A stretch of DNA of 64,000 nt from Erythrobacteraceae bacterium (GTDB taxonomy: Bacteria > Pseudomonadota > Alphaproteobacteria > Sphingomonadales > Sphingomonadaceae): NCBI GenBank assembly GCA_002706445.1, contig PALE01000034.1, positions 16,026-80,025 on the forward strand, read 5' to 3'. Shown here piece by piece: positions 10,130 to 35,698 of this stretch. The position numbers and the translations under genes were made by a program. A model generated the notes under the pieces. That model made no database searches. It was not told the DNA's origin and was given only the letters and a program-made list of their open reading frames with translations. The stretch's first letter is position 1; each line of letters starts with the position of its first letter.

Positions 10130-11170
10130 ATGAAGGCAAAGGGTCAGGATTTTGCGCGCGGCCTGCCCAAATCGGTCACGCAGGCTTCAATCTTCTTCTT
10201 CTGCGGCCCCGATGAAGCGGGCGCCTCTGCCGCTGCCAACAAAATCGTCGAAGCGATGCCCGATGCAGGCGAGCGGGTCGAGCTGTCGGGAAGCGACCTC
10301 AAACGCGATCCAGCCATGCTCGGCGACGAAGCGCGCTCATCCTCGCTGTTCGGCGACAGCCGCCACATCTTCGTGCGTGCCAATGGCGACGAGGCGCATG
10401 ATGCATTGAAGGCGCTGATCGAAACCGGCGAGGTTGGCGGAGGCGATGCCGCGCCCGTGCTGGTGGTGGCGACTTCGGCGACCGACAAATCTCGCACCGC
10501 AAAGCTGCTCGAAAAGCGTCCCGATGCGCTGGTGGCGATGTTCTATCCGCCAGACCTGTCGAGCGTGGCCGTATCGGTGCGCGCTATGGCCGATGCGGCG
10601 GGGCTGCGATTGGGCGGCGATCTGGCCGAACGCATTGCCCGCGGGGCGAGCCTGGATGTGCGGCTGGCGCAGAGCGAGGTCGATAAGCTCGCGCTTTATC
10701 TCGACGCCTCCTCGCAATCGCCCAAGACCGCATCGATTGAGGATTACGCCGAAATTGGCGCGACCAATGAAGAAGACGGCTTCGGCCCCGTGGTCGGCGC
10801 GGTGCTGGGCGGAGAATTGGGCAAATTGCCTGCCGAATTGAAGCGCATGCGCGAGCTGGGACTGAACCCTGTCGGACTGTTGCTGGCAATCGAACGGCGG
10901 GCGGCCTTGCTGGCGCAGATCGCGGCAAGGATCGGCCCGCGCGGCTCGATCGACAATCTCGACCGCGGCGAAAAGGCGCGGCTCGGCATCTTCTGGAAGG
11001 AAGAGCGCGAGGTGCGCGGCCAGCTGGCGCGGTGGAACAGGGTTAAGCTCGACCGGCTGATTCCGCGCCTTGTTGCGCTGCACCAGAATCTGCTTTCAAA
11101 CAGCCAGACCGCCGAGTTGCTGCTGGCGCATGACCTGACCGAAATCGCGAGATTCGCCGCGAAACGGTAG
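10130..11170 (+). CDS. holA: DNA polymerase III subunit delta
   Basis: The 346-residue delta subunit of the clamp loader, which opens the beta clamp during replication. Typical features are the early IFFFCGPDEAGASAAANKI strand and P-loop-like region without a full Walker A, the LVVATSATDKSRTAKLLEK segment, and the C-terminal AELKRMRELGLNPVGLLLAI helix. GAAGG upstream supports ATG 10130. An earlier ATG (10115) meets a stop after five codons. A weak AATCGG/CCGATT hairpin follows the gene without a good T-tract. Confidence 0.93.
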   Translation: MKAKGQDFARGLPKSVTQASIFFFCGPDEAGASAAANKIVEAMPDAGERVELSGSDLKRDPAMLGDEARSSSLFGDSRHIFVRANGDEAHDALKALIETGEVGGGDAAPVLVVATSATDKSRTAKLLEKRPDALVAMFYPPDLSSVAVSVRAMADAAGLRLGGDLAERIARGASLDVRLAQSEVDKLALYLDASSQSPKTASIEDYAEIGATNEEDGFGPVVGAVLGGELGKLPAELKRMRELGLNPVGLLLAIERRAALLAQIAARIGPRGSIDNLDRGEKARLGIFWKEEREVRGQLARWNRVKLDRLIPRLVALHQNLLSNSQTAELLLAHDLTEIARFAAKR

Positions 11171-32416: not shown

Positions 32417-33652
32417 TTATCCGTGTTCGGCGATGAACTCTTCAACGACCGGCGCGACCTTGGTGCGCCATTTGCTGCCGTTGAAAATGCCGTAGTGGCC
32501 TGCGCCCTCTGCCATGTAATAGCGCTTTTTCTTTGCACCGAGTCCGGTGGCAAGTTTCAGGGCAGCCTTGGTCTGGCCGAGCCCTGAAATATCGTCGCGC
32601 TCGCCTTCGACGGCGAGCAGGGCGGTGTCCTTGATCTGGGTCAGATCGACCACTTCACCCTTGTGCTCGAAAGTGCCGTTGGGGATCGAGTGCTTCTGGA
32701 ACACTTCCTCGACCGTCTGGAGGTAGAATTCAGCAGTCATGTCGCAGACCGCGCGATATTCGTCGTAGAAATCCTTAGTCGCCTGCGCGCTCGCATCATC
32801 GCCTACGGTGAGGTGTTTGAACATCTCGTAGTGGCTCATCATGTGGTTCTGCAGGTTCATGCTCATGAACGCCGAAAGCTGCATGAAGCCGGGGTAAACC
32901 TGCCGGCCCGCACCGCGATATTGCATCGGCACGCGCGCGATCACCGATTGGCGGAACCATTCGATCGGGCGGTTCATGGCGTGGTCGTTGACCGAAGTCG
33001 GGCTTTCACGGGTGTCGATGGGGCCGCCCATCATGGTGAGCGTGAGCGGCGTCGCGGGCGATTTGTGCTGGTTCATCAGCGCGGTCGCGGCATAGGCGGG
33101 GACGGAAGGCTGGCACACCGCCATCATATGCGGACGCTTGCCGCCACCCTCGACGCGGATCTGCTCAAGGAACTCCATCAGGTAATCGATGTAGTCGTCG
33201 AGATCGAAGCGCCCTTCGTGCAGCGGAACGGTCTTCGCATCGGCCCAATCGGTAATGTAGACGATGCAGCTTTCCAGCATCCGTTCCACCGTGCCGCGCA
33301 GCAGCGTGGCGTAGTGGCCGCTCATCGGAGCGACGATCAGCAGGCGCGGAGCGGTTTCGGGCAGGCCGGTGTGGCGGAAACGCTTGAGATCGCCGAACGC
33401 GCGGTTGACGACAGTGGCTTCCTCGACCGGATGCTTGGTCCCGTCGACTTCGATTTCGGTGATGCCGAAAGCGGGCTTGCCGTAATAGGCGGTCGCATGC
33501 GCCATCACGTCGAAGGCATTGGCTGCGATTCCGCCGATTCCGAAGTGGCTCAGCGGATTGGCGGGGCTGTTGAGAAATTCCGAGCTCATCGATGCGAGCG
33601 AGCTGACCGAGTTCAGCCAGTTGCGCTGAATTTCATAGACTTGATAGAGCAT
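32417..33652 (-). CDS. phaZ: Intracellular polyhydroxybutyrate depolymerase
   Basis: A 411-residue alpha/beta hydrolase of the intracellular PhaZ family, which mobilises stored PHB in the cytosol. The nucleophile is Cys180 in the lipase-box-like MAVCQPS, as in the cysteine-type depolymerase of Cupriavidus. The start MLYQVYEIQRNWLNSVSSLA and the C-terminal AEGAGHYGIFNGSKWRTKVA (with the catalytic His) are family-typical. A TTGTGC-AAT-GCACAA palindrome of PhaR type lies about 100 bases upstream. phaB is at 4.5-5.2 kb; phaC and phasin genes are not in the window. Confidence 0.93.
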   Translation of the reverse strand: MLYQVYEIQRNWLNSVSSLASMSSEFLNSPANPLSHFGIGGIAANAFDVMAHATAYYGKPAFGITEIEVDGTKHPVEEATVVNRAFGDLKRFRHTGLPETAPRLLIVAPMSGHYATLLRGTVERMLESCIVYITDWADAKTVPLHEGRFDLDDYIDYLMEFLEQIRVEGGGKRPHMMAVCQPSVPAYAATALMNQHKSPATPLTLTMMGGPIDTRESPTSVNDHAMNRPIEWFRQSVIARVPMQYRGAGRQVYPGFMQLSAFMSMNLQNHMMSHYEMFKHLTVGDDASAQATKDFYDEYRAVCDMTAEFYLQTVEEVFQKHSIPNGTFEHKGEVVDLTQIKDTALLAVEGERDDISGLGQTKAALKLATGLGAKKKRYYMAEGAGHYGIFNGSKWRTKVAPVVEEFIAEHG

Positions 33653-33750
33653 GATGCGAATCCGCTTTCTTGTCGCGCGCGGTTGCCAGCTGGAAGTCCA
33701 GAGGCACTTCCGCGCACAGATATGCCGCGACTCATGCCGCTTTACGGCTT

Positions 33751-33767
33751 ATTGTGCAATGCACAAT
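33751..33767. promoter_or_regulatory. Palindrome ATTGTGC-AAT-GCACAAT, PhaR-like site
   Basis: The 7-bp arms ATTGTGC and GCACAAT flank AAT. The TGC-N3-GCA core resembles operators of PhaR, the repressor of PHB-granule genes in alphaproteobacteria. The site lies 99 bases before the phaZ start and 84 bases before the divergent ABC exporter start, so it could serve either or both. The link to PhaR is inference. Confidence 0.5.
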
Positions 33768-33850
33768 TGACGGAGCCCCCCGCAATAGCCGTAGGAGAAC
33801 GGCACTTTTGCAGGTGAAATTTGCAGGCGCGGTGGCTAGATCGTGTCGCT

Positions 33851-35698
33851 ATGAACGGCCAGACCAGCGAAATCAGCGTGATCGAAGCAGACGAAAACGA
33901 TCAGCACGACGAAAACGTGACCGAAGAAAGCGAAAAGGCAAAGCCTTCGCGCTCGCTCGCGCCGCTTCGCATGGTCTATCGCGAGGCGGCCAAATATCCG
34001 CGCCAGGCGATGTTCGCGGCGCTCGCTCTGATCATCACCGCGACCGCGACACTGGCGATTCCGTGGCGCTTCAAGGTTATCGTCGACGATGCTTTTAGCG
34101 GCAACGCCACGCCCGAAACCATCGCCCACGCTTTCCAGTATCTGCTGATGATCGTCGTCGTGCTGGGGATCGGCACGGCGATGCGGTTCTATTTCGTCAG
34201 CTGGATCGGTGAGCGCGTGGTCGCCGATATCCGTCTGCGCGTGCAGGAAAACCTTCTGCGGCTGTCCCCTGGATTCTACGAAGAGAACAGCCCCAAGGAA
34301 ATCTCGAGCCGGATGACCTCGGATACCGCGATCATCGAAACGGTCGTGGGGACCACGGTTTCGGTCGCGCTTCGCAACACGCTCACCGCCATCGGCGGGG
34401 TTGCGCTGCTGCTCTATCTTGCTCCGACGCTGACCATCGGCTTGCTCGTAGGGATACCGCTGGTGATTTTGCCGATCGTTTTCTTCGGCCGCAAAATCCG
34501 TGCTGTCTCGCGCACCAGTCAGGACCGTGTTGCCGATGTCGGCGCTTATGTGACCGAAGTGCTGGCCGCGATGAAAGTGGTGCAGAGCTTCGGGCAGGAG
34601 AAGCGGGAAGGCAGCCGCTTTGCCGGAGTGGTGGAGCGCACCTTCGATACGGCGCGCAAGCGCATCCTGCTGCGCGCGGCCATGACCCCGATCGTCATCC
34701 TGCTCGTGTTCGGCGGGATCACCATGGTGATGTGGCGCGGCGCGCTTGCTGTGTCCGAAGGCGCGATCACCGGCGGCACGATCACCGCATTCGTCTTCAC
34801 CGGCGGTCTGGTCGCCGGCTCGTTCGGCTCGCTGACCGAGGGTTATGGCGATCTTCTGCGCGGTGCAGGCGCGGCTTCGCGGCTTGCCGAACTGCTCGAA
34901 GCCAAGCCGCAGATCGCGGCGCCTGCGCGGCCCGAAGCGCTGCCCGTGCCCGCGCGCGGTTCGCTGTCGTTCCGCAATGTCACCTTCCGCTATCCCGCAC
35001 GGCCCGAAACGCCCGCGCTCAAGGACTTCAGTCTTGAGATCGAACCGGGCGAAACGGTGGCCATCGTCGGCCCGTCGGGCGCGGGCAAATCGACGCTGTT
35101 CCAACTGGTCGAGCGGTTTTACGATCCACAAGGCGGCACAATCCGGCTCGACGGCGTCCCGCTGACCAAGGCGGACCCCGCCGAAATCCGCGAACGCATC
35201 GCCTTTGTCCCGCAGGACGGCGTGCTGTTCAGCGCCAATGCCCGCGACAATTTGCGCTATGGCCGGTGGGATGCGAGTGACGAGCAAATCTGGGACGCGG
35301 CTCGCGCGGCCAATGCCGAGGCTTTCCTGAAGGCGCTGCCCGATGGGCTCGATACGTCCCTGGGCGAAAGCGGCACGCAATTGTCGGGCGGCCAGCGCCA
35401 GCGCGTCGCGATTGCCCGCGCGCTGCTGCGTGATGCGCCGATCCTGCTGCTCGACGAGGCGACCAGCGCATTGGATGCCGAGAGCGAGCAACTGGTGCAA
35501 CAAGCGCTCGACGAGCTGATGAAAGAGCGCACCACGCTCGTGATCGCGCACCGCCTCGCCACCGTGCGCGCGGCGGACCGTATCATCGTGCTCGACAATG
35601 GTGCGATTGCCGAACAGGGAACCCACGCTGAACTGAGTGCGGCCGGCGGCCTCTATGCAAGGCTCGCCTCGCTGCAATTTGCAGCCGAAGCGGCTTAG
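33851..35698 (+). CDS. ABC exporter, fused membrane and ATPase domains (MsbA/LapB-like)
   Basis: A 615-residue half-transporter for export across the inner membrane, acting as a dimer. A 35-residue charged N-terminus precedes six membrane segments (about 52-330). The ATPase domain has GPSGAGKST at 407-415, the Q-loop in FVPQDGVLFSANA, the signature LSGGQRQRVAIARAL, Walker B ILLLDEATSALD and the H-loop. The substrate could be a lipid, peptide or drug. ATG 33851 is preferred to an in-frame start ten codons upstream. A perfect terminator follows. Confidence 0.92.
   Translation: MNGQTSEISVIEADENDQHDENVTEESEKAKPSRSLAPLRMVYREAAKYPRQAMFAALALIITATATLAIPWRFKVIVDDAFSGNATPETIAHAFQYLLMIVVVLGIGTAMRFYFVSWIGERVVADIRLRVQENLLRLSPGFYEENSPKEISSRMTSDTAIIETVVGTTVSVALRNTLTAIGGVALLLYLAPTLTIGLLVGIPLVILPIVFFGRKIRAVSRTSQDRVADVGAYVTEVLAAMKVVQSFGQEKREGSRFAGVVERTFDTARKRILLRAAMTPIVILLVFGGITMVMWRGALAVSEGAITGGTITAFVFTGGLVAGSFGSLTEGYGDLLRGAGAASRLAELLEAKPQIAAPARPEALPVPARGSLSFRNVTFRYPARPETPALKDFSLEIEPGETVAIVGPSGAGKSTLFQLVERFYDPQGGTIRLDGVPLTKADPAEIRERIAFVPQDGVLFSANARDNLRYGRWDASDEQIWDAARAANAEAFLKALPDGLDTSLGESGTQLSGGQRQRVAIARALLRDAPILLLDEATSALDAESEQLVQQALDELMKERTTLVIAHRLATVRAADRIIVLDNGAIAEQGTHAELSAAGGLYARLASLQFAAEAA

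Follow-up and report, generated by a model that had tools for sequence, protein, structure and literature searches.

Free PhaR acts as a repressor, and PHB granules bind it, which releases its targets. In Bradyrhizobium diazoefficiens, PhaR boxes lie at phaP1, phaP4, phaZ1 and phaZ3, and the Bradyrhizobium consensus, TGCRNYGCASMA, is based on DNase I footprinting and gel-shift experiments (PMC6201568). Two PhaR sites are found near the -35 of the phaP1 promoter, and a single one overlaps the -35 of phaP4 (PMC6201568). For AniA/PhaR of Sinorhizobium meliloti, the motif WNWD2NYGCRNYGCRNH2WNW was described at phaP1, phaP2 and phaZ, and EMSA showed PhaR binding to the phaZ promoter (PMC12542648). 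In vitro binding of PhaR to phaZ promoters was found in both species, loss of PhaR raises the transcription or promoter activity of phaZ there, and the phasin promoters under PhaR control have a pair of sites around the -35 (PMC6201568, PMC12542648). PhaR of Paracoccus denitrificans and Rhodobacter sphaeroides recognizes TGC-rich boxes, and that of R. sphaeroides was reported as a phaZ repressor, as both are cited in PMC10888616 and PMC6201568. In other alphaproteobacteria phaZ is already a known PhaR target. Our literature searches returned no description of PhaR control in sphingomonads, nor of the phaZ/exporter arrangement presented below.

The palindrome between phaZ and the exporter

The window, that is, the whole stretch of 64,000 nucleotides analysed here, contains a 198-bp gap between phaZ on the minus strand and a divergent ABC exporter gene on the plus strand, with a palindrome between the two:

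32417..33652, minus strand: phaZ, intracellular PHA/PHB depolymerase, 411 aa (PF06850, E 5e-90; TIGR01849, 539 bits vs cut-off 301)
33751..33767, no strand assigned: candidate PhaR-type operator ATTGTGCAATGCACAAT (sequence, second exact genomic site at phasin, family conservation)
33851..35698, plus strand: MsbA-related ABC exporter, 615 aa from ATG (PF00664 and PF00005; TIGR02204, 786 vs 780 bits)

The exporter start at 33851 is counted from the ATG; the frame also extends to a TTG further upstream, at 33821. The palindrome can be written as ATTGTGCA-A-TGCACAAT, a perfect inverted repeat with 8-bp arms and a 1-nt centre, and it contains TGC-N3-GCA. The Bradyrhizobium consensus could be fitted to it on both strands (TGCAATGCACAA on the plus and TGCATTGCACAA on the minus strand). 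Like B. diazoefficiens boxes, the window site has phaZ as its probable target, but the palindrome is longer and more regular, with its 8-bp arms, and phaZ is here divergent from an ABC exporter. With the motif of S. meliloti, a bacterium of a different order, it shares the YGCRNYGCR core and AT-rich outer arms. TGC-rich recognition is also common to PhaR of P. denitrificans and R. sphaeroides, as far as these are described in the papers citing them.

The exact form TTGTGC-N3-GCACAA is expected 0.0025 times per 64 kb and 0.087 times per 2.25-Mb genome, and a pattern search of the window's genome (2.25 Mb, ~70% complete) returned two sites. Looser matches with at most two mismatches were at chance level in the 64-kb window (2 found, 2.66 expected). 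Our scoring matrix gave other matches in the window at 11069, 8512, 3644 and 29895; the best of them, 11069, falls within a coding frame and was taken as a chance match.

PhaR-type sites at PHB genes of the same genome

The only other exact copy in the window's genome (G000:C1:1024-1038, equivalent to L001:1024-1038) lies upstream of a phasin gene (profile matches PF09361 and TIGR01841), between it and the 3' end of the adjacent phaC, which encodes a class I PHA synthase. A near-copy, TTGTGCAGTGCAACA, is found 46 bp beyond it (L001:1070-1084), and both sites bracket a TTGACT-N16-TATTTT promoter. Phasin promoters of S. meliloti likewise have two sites, and the layouts at phaP1 and phaP4 of B. 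diazoefficiens are comparable with those of phasin and phaZ here. The same genome encodes phaR (PF07879 and PF05233; TIGR01848 equivalog, 152 vs cut-off 109 bits), with the DNA-binding domain PF07879 matched over its full length (1-61/61), and a weaker PhaR-type site (score 12.5) lies upstream of the likely phaR start.

The initial annotation had described a palindrome with a TGC-N3-GCA core between phaZ and a divergent exporter, had proposed it as a PhaR-type site and had stated that the lack of a copy near other PHB genes would speak against it. The palindrome is confirmed at 33751-33767, and the proposal withstood that check because copies exist at the phasin/phaC locus of the window's genome, which also encodes phaR. 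The match to the published consensus, the phasin/phaC copies, the presence of phaR and the position of the site as the main conserved island upstream of phaZ across the family strongly support the assignment at the sequence level.

Other PhaR-type sites were also found in this genome. A site with score 24.5, TAGTGCAATGCACAA (L007:1501-1515; G000:C69:11703-11717), lies in the start region of an Asp/Glu racemase-family gene, which is possibly a further PhaR target. Another, TGGTGCAACGCACAA, with score 21.3 (L004:1501-1515; G000:C42:38136-38150), is found where a family III CoA-transferase gene and a divergent gene of the UDP-glucose dehydrogenase type start. Weaker sites near a dnaK-like gene, a glutamate dehydrogenase gene and a phage portal gene had low scores or an unconserved centre.

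Conservation of the site in the family and order

Across 151 genomes of the family there are 68 occurrences of the exact motif TTGTGCANTGCACAA, as tallied from the listed places, and none of its reversed control. Among 29 exact-site loci from relatives, 22 are at PHB-related positions, with 16 at phasin/phaC and 6 at phaZ/exporter, and the remaining seven are at other or unrecognised genes. One exact PhaR-type site (L052:1501-1515, relative G117) belongs to a coenzyme A transferase gene (PF01144) and lies at or just before its start; this plausibly fits acetoacetate use after PHB breakdown.

A PhaR-type site with score >=10 was found in 94 of the 110 phaZ/exporter gaps of the family, and about 15% of these gaps, as well as some distant phaZ genes, have no recognisable site. 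The matrix was trained on adjacent phaZ/exporter gaps only, separated genes and other families being held out. In the named Erythrobacteraceae-type loci (records titled mostly Erythrobacter, Altererythrobacter, Qipengyuania and Porphyrobacter), the divergent exporter and the site were present in 80 out of 80, with exact TTGTGC..GCACAA arms in 71. When the window was aligned with its relatives, the palindrome appeared as the main kept block.

These data bear on whether the palindrome might have arisen by chance and have no function. Loose versions of the motif do occur in the window at the rate expected by chance. However, the expectation for the exact form is 0.09 per genome, the 68 real occurrences stand against none for the control in the 151 genomes, and the arms are retained across genera while the rest of the gap diverges. 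We consider the probability of a chance palindrome to be practically negligible and reject it as contradicted by both the conservation and the exact-motif counts.

Several genera (loci L023-L042, for example L024, L029 and L038) carry a pair of PhaR-type sites in front of phaZ, spaced by about 31-32 bp. The spacing corresponds to approximately three helical turns, and the paired arrangement resembles that of phasin promoters.

A different regulator with a similar recognition sequence, common to the phasin and phaZ promoters, could also be imagined as the binding protein, since the identification of PhaR is based on sequence and several regulators use short AT-flanked palindromes. Against this, the site matches footprinted PhaR sites and is placed at exactly those promoters known to be PhaR-controlled elsewhere. 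Moreover, phaR is nearly universal in the family (detected in 146 of 151 genomes), and two genomes without phaR and phaZ, G025 and G111, have neither the exact motif nor an above-threshold site at the exporter. We therefore regard another regulator as very unlikely.

Linkage of the site to phaZ

Alignment of the 94 site-bearing gaps on the palindrome centre revealed TTGCAC, a 17-nt spacer, a conserved CA (0.60/0.57) and a weaker T beyond it, from which the following phaZ promoter elements are predicted:

33754..33759, minus strand: predicted phaZ -35 (TTGCAC), inside the palindrome (column conservation, 94 sequences)
33731..33736, minus strand: predicted phaZ -10 (CATGAG), a weak assignment (C 0.60 and A 0.57 at +23/+24 from the palindrome centre, 94 sequences)

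A strict sigma-70 scan of the phaZ upstream region found no promoter. The column conservation suggests an overlap of the palindrome with the phaZ -35, as published for phaP4 of Bradyrhizobium; in S. meliloti, the phaZ site is instead just downstream of the -35.

In the same 94 gaps, the distance from the site to the phaZ start has a median of 77 bp with a standard deviation of 18 bp, against 54 bp for the exporter side, and gap length follows the exporter-side distance (r 0.94), with no such relation to the phaZ-side distance (r 0.09). Thirteen genomes in which the two genes lie apart were also analysed, with both upstream regions taken (G037, G018, G120, G103, G040, G101, G007, G005, G058, G115, G032, G042 and G036). 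The site was found upstream of phaZ in 9 of the 13, a count that leaves out G018, in which the phaZ match overlaps the start region, and upstream of the exporter in none; exporter orthology was taken as the best match, and some of these genomes belong to the same genus, so that the separation events are not all independent. With 0/13 against 9/13 and no conserved distance, the site showed no sign of being kept with the exporter independently of phaZ, as would be expected if the exporter belonged to the PhaR regulon. In three further genomes (G087, G146 and G074) kilobase insertions lie between phaZ and the exporter, and the site is on the phaZ side.

Genomes lacking phaZ were also informative. 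In G025 and G111, the exporter is kept without the site, and both phaZ and phaR are absent according to our searches, suggesting that PHB metabolism was lost in this lineage; the two genomes (L092 and L093) belong to one genus. G091 has no phaZ and an exporter without the site. The exception is G026, with a site at the exporter and no phaZ detected, but there the exporter match begins 272 bp from the contig end and phaZ may have been cut off by it. Elsewhere in the order, the site is present at 11 of 16 phaZ genes from other families, and no exporter lies within 1.5 kb of any of these 16; scores of this level arise by chance at 28 per Mb. The four lines of comparison (distance, separation, loss and other families) agree in indicating, from sequence, that the site serves phaZ.

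The exporter and its upstream element

The exporter side of the gap contains two conserved features:

33806..33821, plus strand: exporter-side conserved element TTTTGCAGGTGAAATT (>=12/16 positions matched in 59/80 named loci; shuffled 0)
33836..33841, plus strand: CTAGAT box, predicted exporter -10 with putative function (14 nt after the element, 9 nt before the ATG)

The element, with the consensus TTTTGCAsGTGAAATT, is found just before the exporter in Erythrobacteraceae-type genomes, and the gap of exactly 14 nt between it and the CTA box is kept in 57 of the 59 element-bearing loci. A search for TTTTGCAsGTGAAATT as a regulon motif in same-genus genomes returned at most one copy per genome and no sign of a regulon. 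Because of this low copy number, the element together with the CTA box looks like the gene's own promoter or leader. Its start lies some 40 bp past the palindrome, and this speaks for separate control.

This bears on the possibility that PhaR regulates phaZ and the divergent exporter alike from a single shared palindrome, which would place the exporter in the PHB regulon. All 80 named loci and most of the family have the two genes side by side in divergent orientation, with one palindrome between them, and PhaR is described as a repressor or activator in other bacteria (PMC12849132). On the other hand, the distance is kept to phaZ and not to the exporter, none of the 13 separated exporters has the site, and phaZ carries sites in families in which the exporter is not its neighbour. 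Additionally, the palindrome centre lies ~89 bp upstream of the predicted transcription start of the exporter, no second site is found near this gene, and a conserved element and CTA box of its own precede it. A shared operator is accordingly an unlikely reading. The same doubt applies to any influence of PhaR on the exporter from the shared palindrome, for example by activation from about -89 or by interference between the divergent promoters, for which we see little chance. If it did exist, a conserved MsbA-related exporter would join the PHB regulon, and this could help to explain why the pair has stayed together.

Discussion

It is highly probable, on the comparative evidence, that the palindrome is the PhaR operator of phaZ and that the adjacent exporter has a separate promoter. 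Of the initial annotation, the reading as a PhaR site stood, whereas co-regulation of the exporter with PHB breakdown, the part called new, did not. We rejected the latter as unsupported in view of the distance conservation, the separated genes (13 genomes), the other families and the exporter's own element. Very probably, the site is a well-supported but ordinary control switch, the conservation of which follows phaZ and not the exporter.

What is observed at this locus is the sequence of the site, its recurrence at phasin, its conservation, its linkage to phaZ and the presence of phaR. By analogy with the characterised systems, PhaR would bind here in the window's organism and would act on phaZ as a repressor, at a promoter placed as predicted above. 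In the absence of polymer, free PhaR would sit on the palindrome, masking the phaZ -35 element and keeping the depolymerase low. As PHB granules form, they would bind PhaR, and phaZ would then be released together with phasin, whose promoter is surrounded by two such sites.

For an operator lying between two divergent genes, comparing genomes in which both genes have separated offers a way to decide which of the two it serves. Here, strong comparative evidence maps a probable PhaR operator of the depolymerase gene in sphingomonads and relatives of Erythrobacter. The motif TTGTGCANTGCACAA and a target set comprising phasin and phaZ are thereby added for a group of organisms of interest in bioplastic production.
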